In this document: positions 1 through 34,335 of the stretch, in pieces
Layout of the letters: each line of letters begins with the position of its first letter
Position numbering within the stretch: position 1 is the stretch's first letter
Virus record (IMG/VR): IMGVR_UViG_3300042923_001157
Location: 1-34,335 of that record
Strand: one strand, 5' to 3'
From: a virus
DNA length: 34,335 bases
The notes under the pieces: generated by a model
The model's input: the letters and a program-made list of their open reading frames with translations, nothing else
Database searches by the model: none
Told to the model about the DNA's origin: nothing
Translations under genes and position numbers: made by a program

Positions 1-190
1 ATATATTATATGAGACTAAGTCATATGAGTTAATAGTTCCTGCATTATAGTTTATCTTATCAAAAAGCAGGTCAGTCGTTCTCATATATTCTAATTGCTC
101 TTCATATTTATATTTCCCCTTGTCATACCATGATTCGTATGCACCATTTGTAACAACATACTCCCATCTATCAGGGGTTGTTTCTGGTGT
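1..190 (-). pseudogene. Host gene, downstream part (interrupted by prophage)
   Basis: The minus strand is open from 190 to the window edge and reads PETTPDRWEYVVTNG and onward, rich in Tyr, Trp and Gly, with no phage-like character. An in-frame TAA lies at 191-193, on the phage side of the core, so the real coding part starts at the core (GAA at 184-182). It continues, in the same codon phase, the reading frame that ends at the right end of the window (34188-34335). The fused protein would read LPE-TTPDRW across the junction. I do not recognise the family; composition suggests an exported or surface protein, but that is only an impression. Confidence 0.75.
180..184. other. attL core (GTTTC)
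   Basis: GTTTC here and at 34204-34208 is the only identity at the point where the host reading frame breaks at both ends. Flanks differ: on the left, host sequence precedes the core and phage sequence (TGGTGTTTAGAAAACC) follows. A short core is what large serine recombinases use (2-bp crossover within a few shared bases). The exact crossover dinucleotide cannot be read from the sequence. Confidence 0.8.
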
Positions 191-499
191 TTAGAAAACC
201 AAAACTCAAAAATAGAAGGTGTTAAGCTTCAACTCGTATCTACAGATGAATTTATTTCAGACTTATCTATGCGAAAATACCACATAAATAGTACTATTTG
301 TGAAGATAAAAATTCAATAGGTTATAAAATCATTGAATACAGAGCAAAAAACAATTTATACCGAAAAGAATTATCTGAGATATTAAAATGTAATATTCAG
401 ACCTTAGAGAAATGGGAAAAGAATAAAGTTATTCCTAATGAAAAATATCAAAATAAACTAAAAGAGTTGATACCTGATATTATATTCTATAAAAAATAA
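185..499 (+). CDS. Displaced 3' end of the serine recombinase gene, with XRE-like HTH
   Basis: This plus-strand frame is open from the attL core to a TAA at 497-499 (104 codons). The only ATG (269) has no ribosome binding site, so it is unlikely to be a gene of its own in the prophage. Joined at the GTTTC core to the recombinase frame at the right end, it continues that frame without a stop. Within it, residues from IGYKIIEYRAKNN through ELSEILKCNIQTLEKWE to NKVIPNE follow the HTH_3/XRE pattern (helix, TQ-x-LA-like helix, turn, recognition helix ending in W-E-x-x-K-x-x-P). Seen: open frame and motif. Inferred: that the tail is translated only from circular or re-joined phage DNA. An internal start giving a free 76-residue HTH protein is the alternative. 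Confidence 0.7.
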   Translation, partial: WCLENQNSKIEGVKLQLVSTDEFISDLSMRKYHINSTICEDKNSIGYKIIEYRAKNNLYRKELSEILKCNIQTLEKWEKNKVIPNEKYQNKLKELIPDIIFYKK

Positions 500-522
500 A
501 AGAGTAGAAAAGCTACTCTTTT
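498..522. terminator. Bidirectional hairpin terminator
   Basis: AAAAGAGTAG (498-507) pairs with CTACTCTTTT (513-522) around a 5-nt loop, flanked by A-rich and T-rich tracts on both sides. It closes the displaced recombinase tail on the plus strand and the methylase gene on the minus strand. In circular phage DNA it would terminate the repressor-recombinase transcript; in the prophage it is about 34 kb from that transcript. Confidence 0.85.
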
Positions 523-540
523 ATTTTTACAATTAAAACA

Positions 541-9952: not shown

Positions 9953-10620
9953 AACCATCTATCCTTTCTTTTAACTTTAATTATCGGATCTCCGCTATGA
10001 ATAATAACATTATTTATACCAGGTTCTAATAATGGAAAATCATATCCTATCTCTAATTGCCTATTTCTTAATAAACCATCCATTATAGCGCTCATTTCTT
10101 CACAATCAATTTCAACATAATTATCATTATTAAAATTATATTTAAAACGAATAGCTCCTATTGTTACTTCTATAGAAGTTTCACTTTGCTTTTCTAAACG
10201 TATTATTGGCCTTGATACTATATTCCCTTCATTTAAAATAGTTGAAGTTACTAATTCATATATATCATTAGCTTTATACCAAAATGGCGATCTAATAAAT
10301 GAAAAGTCCGCTATTTTAATTATAGAATTTCTTATAGGCGTAACTTGACTATAAAAATATGCTGTTGTAACCCTACCTTTGTACTCAAAAGGTCCATTAC
10401 CATTTAACCACGATAATATGTAATCCTGCTTGGATAAATCAATCATTTGTACCTTTATGGGCCTTTCAATGTTACTATATCCTAGCGAATTATAAATTGC
10501 CCCATCTCTACCTTCCACTTCAATTGTTTCAATTCTTTGAGGCGCTTTTGCAATAAAATGTTCTTCTTCTTCAATAACAACTTTCATGTCGTCACTAGAT
10601 ATATTTTTAAATGTAAACAT
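9949..10620 (-). CDS. Distal tail protein (Dit)
   Basis: A 223-residue protein of the siphovirus distal tail family: YNSLGYSNIERPIKVQM, the DYILSWLNGNGPFEY motif, and FSFIRSPFWYK are typical of Dit. It caps the tail tube as a hexamer and anchors the Tal protein. It starts directly after the tape measure stop, whose last codons supply the Shine-Dalgarno (GGGAGG). Confidence 0.88.
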   Translation of the reverse strand: MFTFKNISSDDMKVVIEEEEHFIAKAPQRIETIEVEGRDGAIYNSLGYSNIERPIKVQMIDLSKQDYILSWLNGNGPFEYKGRVTTAYFYSQVTPIRNSIIKIADFSFIRSPFWYKANDIYELVTSTILNEGNIVSRPIIRLEKQSETSIEVTIGAIRFKYNFNNDNYVEIDCEEMSAIMDGLLRNRQLEIGYDFPLLEPGINNVIIHSGDPIIKVKRKDRWL

Positions 10621-31031: not shown

Positions 31032-31281
31032 TTTTATCCTCATTTCTGTTAATTTTTTTCACACTTTGACTTAAAAAAATATATTCCTTATAATCAATAT
31101 TATTCTCATTACAATAATTTATAATTGCTCCACAGAATATAGCGCCTGCACCTTTGCCATTTGATTTGATTACTTTATTAAGATGAACTCTTTGTATTCC
31201 CACTTCTTCTGCGAATTTTGATTGGTTACCATGAAATTTATTTTGAATAAGTTCATTAATTTTTTCTATATTCACACCCAA
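31021..31281 (-). CDS. Cro-like HTH regulator
   Basis: An 86-residue protein with an XRE/Cro-type HTH: KINELIQNKFHGNQSKFAEE, then VGIQRVHLNKVIKSN, followed by a short dimerisation part (IINYCNENNIDYKEYIF). It lies divergently from the repressor and leads the early operon, the place of Cro. TTG 31281 is the preferred start (GGGGGTGG 5 nt before); ATG 31296 lacks a spaced Shine-Dalgarno. A copy of the operator (31048-31062) lies within its own coding region. Confidence 0.8.
   Translation of the reverse strand: MGVNIEKINELIQNKFHGNQSKFAEEVGIQRVHLNKVIKSNGKGAGAIFCGAIINYCNENNIDYKEYIFLSQSVKKINRNEDKNEE
31048..31062. promoter_or_regulatory. Operator copy inside the cro gene
   Basis: GTTAATTTTTTTCAC, identical to the operators at 31302 and 31359, but within the cro coding sequence (it encodes the minus-strand VKKIN). 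It is 240 bp from the nearest intergenic operator, a distance suited to looping. Confidence 0.6.
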
Positions 31282-31301
31282 TTTTTCCACCCCCATTTGC
31301 T

Positions 31302-31497
31302 GTTAATTTTTTTCACATCTTCATTTTATAACATATTTTTTTCTTTGTCAACCCCTTTGTTAATTTTTTTCACTTTTTTGTTAAATTTGTTAACTTTTTT
31401 CACTTTAATAATTAAAGTTTTAGTGTATTTTGTAATAAATTACCATTTTTTGTTAACTTTTTTCACTATTTCACATAATTCTGTTGATTTTTTTCAC
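31302..31497. promoter_or_regulatory. Operator array of the lysogeny switch
   Basis: Five intergenic copies of a 15-bp element GTTRAYTTTTTTCAC at 31302-31316, 31359-31373, 31389-31403, 31452-31466 and 31483-31497, plus an overlapping palindromic variant GTTAAATTTGTTAAC at 31380-31394. Half-sites are GTTAA and GTGAA (TTCAC reversed) with 5 bp between. Sites flank both divergent promoters, so the repressor and Cro probably compete for them. Spacings are 57, 30, 63 and 31 bp. Confidence 0.9.
31323..31351 (-). promoter_or_regulatory. Early lytic promoter driving cro
   Basis: On the minus strand TTGACA (31351-31346), 17 bp, TAAAAT (31328-31323). Operators at 31359 and 31302 bracket the promoter, so repressor would block it from both sides. 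Transcription runs leftwards into cro and the early operon. Confidence 0.85.
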
Positions 31498-31512
31498 TAT
31501 TTAGGTTATAAT
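31484..31512 (+). promoter_or_regulatory. Repressor promoter, -35 inside an operator
   Basis: TTGATT (31484-31489), 17 bp, TATAAT (31507-31512). The -35 box lies within the operator at 31483-31497, so high repressor or Cro occupancy would shut the promoter (autoregulation). The leader before ATG 31531 is about 12 nt with GAGGTG. Confidence 0.85.
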
Positions 31513-31530
31513 ATTCTTGAGGTGTTAAAA

Positions 31531-32523
31531 ATGTTTAACAAAGAAAAATTTGCACAAATAATAAAAAAAATATTAGATCAATATGAATCTGGTGTTGAAT
31601 TTTCAGAAAAATCAGGAGTTAATAGAACTTATATATCAAAATATATAAATATGAGTCTTGATAAAGCTCCAAGTCCTGCAATATTAAAAAAACTAGCTAA
31701 TCATTCAAAAGGTATAACTACCTATGAGGAATTGATGGAAACGTGTGGATATGTTGAAATCGATTTTTCTAATTATAAATTTTTAGACGATGATTTGATT
31801 AATTCATATAAACAAATTGGAATGGATACAACAGCTTTTATAAATCTTAATAAACTTTTTAACGAAATTTGTAGAGAGTTTACTCAAGAAGAACTTGATT
31901 TATTTAGTAAAATATTAAAAGATAGAGTTATATATAATAATAAAGGAAATAAAGATGCCTTTGATTTTAATCCTTATTTAATTGGGGTTAATGATGCTTC
32001 TAAAGCAAAAATTACACATGGATATAAAATATTTTTAAATGCAGATTTAAAAATTTATGAGGATATTACTAACTATCTGAAAAGTTTAATAAATAGCGAT
32101 GATGCATTAGATAAAGATGATGTGATAATGCCACTAAAAATACCAGTAGTAGGAAAGATAAGTGCAGGTAGACCTATTTTGGCTGAAGAAAACTTTCAAG
32201 GATATGAATTTGCTCCCTCTACTAATATTAAAAAAGGCTATGAATATTTTTATTTAAGAGTTAGTGGCGATAGCATGAATATTAAGTTCGATGATGGTGA
32301 TTCAGTATTAGTGCAAAAACAAGAAAATCTCGAAAACGGTGAAATTGGCGTCGTTCGAGTAAATGGATATGATGCCACAGTTAAAAAGTTTAAAAGACAA
32401 GGTGACTTTATAATATTAGAACCCATGAGTACAAATCCACATCATGAAATTCAAATATATAAATCTACTGATGACGTCCATATTATTGGAAAAGTAATAT
32501 CTTATATGGGAAAAATAAATTAA
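31531..32523 (+). CDS. LexA/CI-type lysogenic repressor
   Basis: A 330-residue protein with an N-terminal HTH (KFAQIIKKILDQYESGVEFS, EKSGVNRTYISKYINM), a charged linker region, and a C-terminal S24 peptidase domain. The cleavage dipeptide is A212-G213 in GKISAGRP, the catalytic dyad S248 in SGDSMN and K285 in ATVKKF. RecA-stimulated self-cleavage would relieve repression after DNA damage. ATG 31531 has GAGGTG upstream and follows the promoter at 31484-31512; the long in-frame extension upstream runs through the operator region and is not coding. Stop lies 17 bp before the recombinase. Confidence 0.95.
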   Translation: MFNKEKFAQIIKKILDQYESGVEFSEKSGVNRTYISKYINMSLDKAPSPAILKKLANHSKGITTYEELMETCGYVEIDFSNYKFLDDDLINSYKQIGMDTTAFINLNKLFNEICREFTQEELDLFSKILKDRVIYNNKGNKDAFDFNPYLIGVNDASKAKITHGYKIFLNADLKIYEDITNYLKSLINSDDALDKDDVIMPLKIPVVGKISAGRPILAEENFQGYEFAPSTNIKKGYEYFYLRVSGDSMNIKFDDGDSVLVQKQENLENGEIGVVRVNGYDATVKKFKRQGDFIILEPMSTNPHHEIQIYKSTDDVHIIGKVISYMGKIN

Positions 32524-32540: not shown

Positions 32541-34335
32541 TTGAAAAAATATGCAGCTATATATGCTAGAAAATCTAAAGACAAAAACGATAGTTTCTCA
32601 ATAGCCTTTCAAACGCAAAGATGTATAAATTATTGCAATGAGCATAATTGGGAATATAAGATATTTGATATCGATGAAGGATTTTCAGCAGGTAATACAA
32701 AAAGACCTGGGTTTCAGCAAATGCTAAAAGAGATTGAAATCGGTGGAATTGATAAAATTATTATATACAAATATGATAGAATTAGTAGGAGTACAAAAGA
32801 TTTTATTAATTTAGCCGATAATTTACAAAAAAAAGGCGTTGGTATTATCTCGCTTGTAGAACAGTTTGATACAACTACTGCTTTTGGTAGGGCAATGGTA
32901 ATGCAATTAATGATTTGGGCCCAACTAGAAAGAGAACAAACATCCGAACGTATAAAAGATAATGCTATAGATAGAGTATCTCTTGGTAGATGGTATGGTG
33001 GTAATATACCTTTCGGTTATAATAAAGAGAAAATTATCGACAAGAATAATAAGATTCATCCAAAATTAATTATAAATAACGAAGAAGCTAATATCATAAA
33101 ATTTATATATGAAAATTATTTAAAACCTGGAGGCAGCACTAGAAAAATAGCAAAATTACTTAATGATAATAAAGTCCTATATAAGAATGAACCGAAAATA
33201 TGGTCATCATATAATATTTCTCACATTCTAAAATTATATGCTTATTGCCAAAACTCCGCTTCTATTTATGAATATTTTAAAAACTATACTGATATACAAA
33301 TAATGAATCAAATTGAAGATTTTGATTCTACAAAAAGCATAATGATATTTGGAGGTACGAAACGATATCTTGACGGAAGTAGATCAAAAACAAAATCTAA
33401 AGATAGAAAATTATTTGTAGCAGAACATGAATATATTATTGACTCTATAACATGGTTAAAAGCTCAAAAAAAACTATTAGAAAGTGTCATCACTAAAAAT
33501 CCAAATGCAGGACACGGTAAAGCCAGTATATTAAGCGGACTTGTATTTTGTGAATGCGGTAGTCTCATGACAATAGTAGGATCAAAAAAAGAGGATGTTA
33601 ATGGGGAATCATATAGATATTTTCAGTGTACAAAGAAAGATAGAAAAGAAATTTGCAATAGTAAAAATATAAGAATACATGTTTTAGAAAATTATGTTGA
33701 ACAAGAAATCTTTAAATATATTAATAACACTAATGTTTTAAAAAAATATATCAAAATAAAAGATAAATTAAGAAATAGTAAACAAGACCTAATAGAAAAA
33801 CAGAAAAATTTAAATAATGATATTTTGATTTTAGATAATAAAATATCCAATCTTTTGAATAGTTTTTCTGATAATTTAAATCTTAAAGAATATGTTGAAA
33901 AAGAAATCAATAGACTAGATTTAGATAAGAGAAAATTAAAAGAATTCTCAGAACAGTTAGAGAGTCAATTAATGGATATAAGCAACGAGGATTTAAGTAT
34001 AGAACTTTTAAAAAATAAAATAAAAGATTTTGAAACAATTTATATAAATGCTAATTTTAAAGAGAAACAAATTATTATAAAAACAATAATAAAAAAAATT
34101 AACATAAAGCCAAAGGTAACTATTGATTTTTTTGATTTAAGCTTCTCTATCCTAAAAAATATTGATAGAGAAGCATCTTCTAACTTTTTAAGTTTTGGTA
34201 GTGGTTTCAGGCAGAAAATCAGCTGGAAAATGTACATTGCTAACAACCGTTCCACTATAACTTGTTCCAAGCAAATAATACTCTCCTCTTTCTCCAAATC
34301 CATTATATTTTCCATTATATCTTGTCCATCTCCCA
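32541..34335 (+). CDS. Large serine recombinase (integrase), no stop in the window
   Basis: TTG start after GAAGGTGAT. Catalytic domain 1-150: IYARKS gives the nucleophile S12, then DEGFSAGNTKRPGFQQML, IIIYKYDRISRS, and RAMVMQLMIWAQLEREQTSE. Recombinase domain 160-260 (GRWYGGNIPFGY, STRKIAKLLN). Zinc ribbon with C337, C339, C363 and C372, then a coiled coil at about 400-510. All conserved parts end by about residue 540, before the attR core, which is codon 555-556. In the prophage the frame then reads at least 42 codons of antisense host sequence with no stop before the window ends. Joined at the core as in attP, it continues instead through 185-499, giving 660 residues with an XRE-like tail. 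It mediates integration and, with a directionality factor, excision. Confidence 0.93.
   Translation, partial: MKKYAAIYARKSKDKNDSFSIAFQTQRCINYCNEHNWEYKIFDIDEGFSAGNTKRPGFQQMLKEIEIGGIDKIIIYKYDRISRSTKDFINLADNLQKKGVGIISLVEQFDTTTAFGRAMVMQLMIWAQLEREQTSERIKDNAIDRVSLGRWYGGNIPFGYNKEKIIDKNNKIHPKLIINNEEANIIKFIYENYLKPGGSTRKIAKLLNDNKVLYKNEPKIWSSYNISHILKLYAYCQNSASIYEYFKNYTDIQIMNQIEDFDSTKSIMIFGGTKRYLDGSRSKTKSKDRKLFVAEHEYIIDSITWLKAQKKLLESVITKNPNAGHGKASILSGLVFCECGSLMTIVGSKKEDVNGESYRYFQCTKKDRKEICNSKNIRIHVLENYVEQEIFKYINNTNVLKKYIKIKDKLRNSKQDLIEKQKNLNNDILILDNKISNLLNSFSDNLNLKEYVEKEINRLDLDKRKLKEFSEQLESQLMDISNEDLSIELLKNKIKDFETIYINANFKEKQIIIKTIIKKINIKPKVTIDFFDLSFSILKNIDREASSNFLSFGSGFRQKISWKMYIANNRSTITCSKQIILSSFSKSIIFSIISCPSP
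34141..34174. repeat. Inverted repeat within the recombinase gene near attR
   Basis: GCTTCTCTATC (34141-34151) pairs with GATAGAGAAGC (34164-34174), 11-bp perfect arms with a 12-nt loop, 30 bp from the core. It is coding. It may be an RNA hairpin, a partial terminator or a protein site at the attachment region. Confidence 0.6.
34188..34335 (-). pseudogene. Host gene, upstream part (interrupted by prophage)
   Basis: From the window edge the minus strand reads GRWTRYNGKYNGFGERGEYY, LLGTSYSGTVVSNVHFPADF, LPE up to the core, and then eight phage-derived bases add TTTKT and a stop (34190-34188). The frame matches in phase the fragment at 1-190. The interrupted protein would be truncated in the lysogen. 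The family is not recognised. Confidence 0.75.
34204..34208. other. attR core (GTTTC)
   Basis: Second copy of GTTTC. Phage sequence precedes it on the plus strand (AGTTTTGGTAGTG), host sequence follows (AGGCAGAAAATCAGC). The phage halves form an imperfect inverted repeat, with GTTTT about 10 bp from the core on each side. In the recombinase frame the core spans the codons GGT TTC. Confidence 0.8.

Follow-up and report, generated by a model that had tools for sequence, protein, structure and literature searches.

What becomes of an integrase gene when the attachment site lies within its own coding frame? The question is raised by a stretch of viral DNA of 34,335 nucleotides (the window, analysed at its full length), at whose right-hand end a serine recombinase frame runs without a stop into host sequence. 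The initial annotation had proposed that attP is located inside this gene, and that integration swaps the C-terminus of the enzyme.

A recombinase frame open at both phage ends

The body of the enzyme, comprising a catalytic domain, a recombinase domain and a zinc ribbon (residues 1-556; 32541..34208, + strand), was delineated using Pfam, PHROGs and alignment with relatives. Pfam matches to Resolvase (1.3e-32), Recombinase (5.6e-12) and Zn_ribbon_recom (4.1e-12) were all above the cut-off, PHROGs returned phrog_95 integrase (8.8e-105), and the alignment revealed the invariant R10/S12 and R80/R83. This domain set, with its catalytic serine, is that of a large serine recombinase (LSR), as predicted from sequence. 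The conserved LSR core stops near 34133 and is followed by a linker of about 25 codons leading up to the att core.

The frame starts at TTG 32541 and continues without a stop through the end of the window at 34335. At the opposite phage end the same codon phase is open until TAA 497-499, and joining the two ends as in the circular form gives an in-frame junction with 104 more codons past the core, for a product of 660 aa with an XRE-like HTH end. The joined gene is thus as the initial annotation had described it. The annotation had also called for extending the sequence to the right to find the stop of the prophage form, which was located using the Clostridia MAG L003: 55 host-antisense codons follow the core, giving a lysogen product of 611 aa.

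The chance of an open frame was estimated at p ~0.011-0.014 for the 53 linker codons spanning both sides of attP, and at p ~3e-5 for all 129 codons past the LSR core. Codon-usage scores in the fusion frame were coding-like, at +4.9 for the linker and +7.4 for the tail, versus -15.2 and -36.1, and -11.2 and -2.8, respectively, in the other frames of the same strand.

After the tail stop, a hairpin and T-tract on the + strand (about 499..527) were read by eye and are probably the terminator of the circular-form gene. This hairpin, the "strong terminator" of the initial annotation, is absent from the output of a terminator scan. A perfect 11-bp inverted repeat (34141..34174, + strand; fold -16.5 kcal/mol, z -1.67) lies between the LSR core and attP, with no clean T-run after the repeat.

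An empty host site defines the prophage ends and attP

When genomes were scanned with the two host flanks joined together, an uninterrupted host ORF, corresponding to the empty site, came up in L003 (9746-11356). Window positions 1-187 align to L003 10310..10124 and positions 34204-34335 to 10131..10000, with 99% identity on both sides (99.5% for the left flank), and the joined flanks form a single open host reading frame. The left part of the host gene occupies 1..185 and the right part 34212..34335, both on the - strand, and the intact L003 ORF encodes a 536-aa protein with an Athe_2463 domain (NCBIfam NF047340, 1.6e-12). Since this host copy is uninterrupted and intact, the prophage ends and attP are real, and with the recombinase frame open to the core and beyond, the placement of attP inside the LSR coding frame is confirmed.

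The sequence GTTTC[T/A]GG is common to the left flank, the right flank and the empty site, with T in attL and the host and A in attR. A dyad in attP, AGTTTTGGT..ACCAAAACT, is symmetric at 16/25 positions and centred on the GG at 186-187, equivalent to 34210-34211. Its phage halves now lie in attR (34184..34211) and attL (186..230), as located by the dyad and the match to the empty site. The crossover dinucleotide is probably this GG at 34210-34211, which also fits the one position (T/A) that varies between the two att sites and the empty site. The core at 34204-34208 given by the initial annotation is indeed shared, with the centre of crossover now moved to the GG. Because the dyad is centred there, codon 557 is probably AGG (Arg) rather than TGG. 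An 80% identical homologue of the host gene in L004 also carries A at the T/A position, and the difference is possibly a host polymorphism; the reading frame is unaffected either way. As in serine integrase systems, a dyad-symmetric attP and an empty attB in L003 have the central dinucleotide in common. Integration at attP/attB has evidently taken place, with the LSR as the predicted recombinase.

Upstream of the recombinase by 17 bp is a separate, intact gene for a CI/LexA-like repressor with HTH and S24 peptidase domains (31222..32523, + strand; Pfam Peptidase_S24 1.9e-29, HTH_3 1.7e-5). A 37-bp match with 84% identity connects 31087-31123 (- strand), to the left of the repressor, with 32624-32660 at the recombinase start, and is possibly a shared site or chance. 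Elsewhere in the window, a D12-class adenine methyltransferase (541-1295, - strand) is present as two ORFs, 541-891 and 951-1295, which match different halves of Pfam MethyltransfD12; this points to either a frameshift in the gene or an error in sequencing.

The detached tail resembles an XRE HTH

The 3' stretch separated from the rest of the recombinase gene (188..499, + strand) was assigned by its open frame, profile matches and a homologue, and contains the XRE-like HTH at approximately 317-442. The window tail scores below the cut-off against Pfam HTH (E 0.0012) and matches PHROGs HTH at 1.4e-5, while the tails of relatives exceed the cut-off. Among all fetched loci, its best homologue is the corresponding end ORF of L043/L153 (E 5e-7). 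Since this best match sits beside the nearest relative of the window LSR, the LSR and its tail seem to move as a unit. The tail terminates in DIIFYKK, with no AA-type (ssrA-like) degradation tag. AlphaFold models built without alignments were poor, with a mean pLDDT of 49 for the window tail and 40 for a second model. Tail matches in G019 and G020 were rejected as LSR tails, being ordinary XRE genes.

A related pair displays both C-termini

The claim that integration exchanges the C-terminus is borne out by a group of relatives captured in both states. The LSR bodies of L047, a free form, and of the integrated L048 and L046 are 75-80% identical (75% for L047 and L048), and the sequences diverge at the core, ..TCTGTAATGCA.GGGTGCCC. 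Past the core, the L047 frame continues into two HTHs, for a total of 709 aa, and that of L048 reads, still in frame, through the C-terminal half of the ComM/Mg-chelatase of the host (Pfam 6.6e-34), for a total of 715 aa. Both L048 and L046 are inserted in comM, forming a recombinase-ComM chimera by in-frame fusion.

The LSR – attP – HTH layout recurs in distant relatives

Scans for close relatives with the window LSR and tail, covering viral and genome contigs, gave no matches, and a fused LSR-HTH query against phages gave no record with at least 80% coverage. Alignment-based scans yielded 160 LSR loci, in which the LSR – attP – HTH layout recurs in distant relatives. In uninterrupted DNA, frame 0 leads from the LSR through an attP-like dyad into XRE HTHs over 129-193 codons in L047, L076, L087 and L235; in L041 (Terrisporobacter phage TPELB_ph1, PP197244.1), L069 and L205 the HTHs are reached in the -1 frame after a run of eight or nine A (A8/A9), over 126-171 codons. 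For prophage relatives, the two ends were joined at the shared core before the frame was read. The joined ends are linked in the -1 frame in L051 and L065 (169 and 176 codons) and in frame 0 in L052 (170 codons). LSR and HTH are unlinked in L044, whose joined ends are clearly out of frame. L043, the nearest relative of the window (37%), is ambiguous: the HTH lies past attP, out of frame by simple join, with the host frame not obviously restored. Linkage was thus found in 11 of these 13 intact-attP and joined-end loci, the window included. HTH detection in L205, L235, L051, L052 and L065 was independent of the training set of the profile.

At the level of sequence, the observations that the initial annotation named as refuting its claim did not appear: the attP junction is in frame, and free or intact-attP relatives carry the fused LSR frame. 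The fusion it described is direct in the window and several relatives, but in many other relatives it would require shifting to the -1 frame at A8/A9. Like the window, TPELB_ph1 has an LSR and an attP-like dyad, followed in its encapsidated DNA by a same-strand HTH ORF of 103 aa, and its -1 frame after A9 links the LSR to this ORF. It differs in being annotated as two genes, in requiring a -1 shift for fusion, and in a body that is only ~31-34% identical. Overall, judging from the comparison of sequences, an LSR gene that contains attP and has a swappable HTH tail seems to be widespread among Clostridia phages and under selection.

Three loci initially taken for an intact attP with a separate HTH were reclassified as integrated records: the DNA of L054 and L107 runs into a trmFO-like gene, and that of L118 into a host gene also found beside L082. 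Two different LSRs were present in each of the records holding L192/L198 (a single 63-kb record), L196/L231 and L235/L244, which suggests tandem prophages, L192/L198 and L196/L231 apparently at trmFO.

A8/A9 runs at LSR 3' ends

Exactly nine A are present at the LSR 3' end in 22 of 77 clusters, usually as ..KKK followed by the stop, and a longer run in none of the 77, while control windows within the same genes contain nine A in 1/962 cases. In the 13 A8/A9 clusters other than L210 and L221, outside one terminator-like group, open stretches measure 17-171 codons in the -1 frame and 1-15 in the +1 frame; after A9, the -1 frame is open through attP in, for example, L051, L060, L065 and L069. This pattern suggests that A8/A9 is a site of programmed slippage or -1 frameshifting, which would yield an LSR-HTH fusion beside the short LSR. 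L257 and L261 depart from the simple -1 rule, and in an independent genome set A9 was found in 3 of 25 loci, with the -1 frame the longest in one of the three. The window has no A9, its fusion being direct. The LSR of L083 (contig 2901126171_000001) ends in a T9 run immediately before the stop, possibly a second kind of slippery end.

The runs could instead be the T-tracts of terminators that block host transcription from attR, the open -1 frame being coincidental. Such a role fits L041, L109, L255 and the L208-L246 group, in all of which a hairpin immediately follows A9, and there the run may also serve as a reverse-strand terminator tract; in the L208-L246 group the -1 frame is shut after 5-6 codons. 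We consider this reading unlikely: L051, L052, L054, L060, L065, L068, L069, L072, L086, L099 and L107 have no such hairpin, and all of these apart from L052, with its frame-0 fusion, have a long -1 frame.

A second alternative is that the HTH forms a small regulator in its own right, with its own start or a start-stop overlap, so that attP, located between it and the LSR promoter, would make its transcription, rather than a fusion, dependent on the circle. Candidate starts exist at ATG 269 in the window and, in several relatives, at an ATG or GTG immediately to the right of the crossover; TPELB_ph1 and L069, read normally, have the HTH as an ORF of its own, L051 has an ATGA overlap, and the HTH is out of frame with the LSR in L044 and, by simple join, in L043. 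However, the first in-frame ATG in the window tail, at 269, is not preceded by a Shine-Dalgarno-like sequence, the frame from LSR to HTH is stop-free in the window, L047, L052, L076, L087 and L235, and the A9 cases keep the -1 frame, but not the +1 frame, open over the LSR-attP interval. We regard an independent regulator as unlikely.

Finally, fusion could be a by-product of an attP situated at the LSR 3' end, with stop codons weakly selected and the tail or host residues immaterial. LSR C-termini are indeed highly variable, many relatives stop before attP, and the host-derived tails are clearly arbitrary. Set against this are the low chance (~0.01) that the 53 linker codons of the window are open, the independent recurrences with recognisable HTH domains, and the excess of A9, which make a by-product very unlikely.

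Proposed mechanism

The reading we favour, with somewhat better than even confidence, is that the LSR gene spans attP, that its tail is swapped on integration, and that the HTH acts as an integration-state-dependent regulator when the DNA is circular. In this pathway, circular phage DNA would encode the 660-residue LSR with its C-terminal XRE-like HTH tail. Crossover of attP with attB at the GG would keep the full catalytic body at attR while replacing the tail with the 55 host-antisense codons, and would strand the HTH part at attL with no evident promoter or ribosome-binding site. Excision would then bring back the tailed form. The tail is presumed to be translated and to bind DNA, and would be active only while the phage is circular, for example by tethering the enzyme near attP or by repressing its own or lytic promoters. 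The lysogen would retain an enzyme usable with a separate RDF for excision.

Its absence from the lysogen means that the tail cannot start excision, and its presence during infection means that integration must be able to proceed with it in place. At its simplest it would be a DNA-binding module of the circular state, either tethering close to attP or controlling the int, cI or lytic promoters. Control of directionality by the tail, as the initial annotation suggested, is also possible, by analogy with engineered fusions of phiC31 and Bxb1 integrases to their RDFs, in which a C-terminal fusion changes directionality (PMC5737554). The window likewise has a small protein joined to the LSR C-terminus, but in contrast to these artificial constructs its HTH tail is natural, present before integration and gone from the lysogen, the reverse of what excision would call for.

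Relation to known systems

The initial annotation had drawn analogies to mycobacteriophage repressors and SSV integrases; the logic is similar, and the window differs from both. In BPs-type mycobacteriophages attP lies in the repressor gene, and integration strips a C-terminal ssrA-like degradation tag (PMC4557955; PMC9934374). Here too attP is within a coding sequence, a C-terminal part is lost, and the virus and prophage protein forms differ; unlike BPs, the gene encodes a serine recombinase, what is lost is an HTH domain without an ssrA-like tag, and the repressor gene is intact. In the suicidal archaeal tyrosine integrases of the SSV1/pTN3/pT26-2 type, attP lies in the integrase gene, which integration splits into two inactive parts, and a review describes self-disrupting recombinases as exclusively archaeal (PMC8371274). 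The window shares an attP in the integrase gene and a gene altered by integration, but its enzyme belongs to a bacterial serine family rather than to the tyrosine recombinases, and retains the whole catalytic body at attR, with only the tail changed.

The open-access literature yielded nothing direct on serine integrase genes that contain attP and carry a swappable HTH tail, nor on slippage or frameshifting in LSR genes. A large LSR-mining study reconstructed attP from prophage ends (PMC10083194), and the passages of that paper that were searched do not mention a tail swap. The arrangement of attP within an LSR gene with a swappable HTH tail is apparently undescribed. We see an even chance that these loci define a class of bacterial serine integrase not described before, with attP in its own coding region, in which the integrated or circular state, in many phages together with programmed slippage at A8/A9, sets whether the tail is an HTH or host-derived; such an enzyme might be termed a "state-reading integrase". 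Mining pipelines, if they use the prophage-encoded integrase, would obtain the host-derived tail and miss the natural one. If the proposal is true, these enzymes would be a bacterial serine-family counterpart of the archaeal self-disrupting recombinases, with the catalytic part retained. They would constitute a protein-level sensor of the integration state, with bearing on LSR directionality, expression control and tool development.
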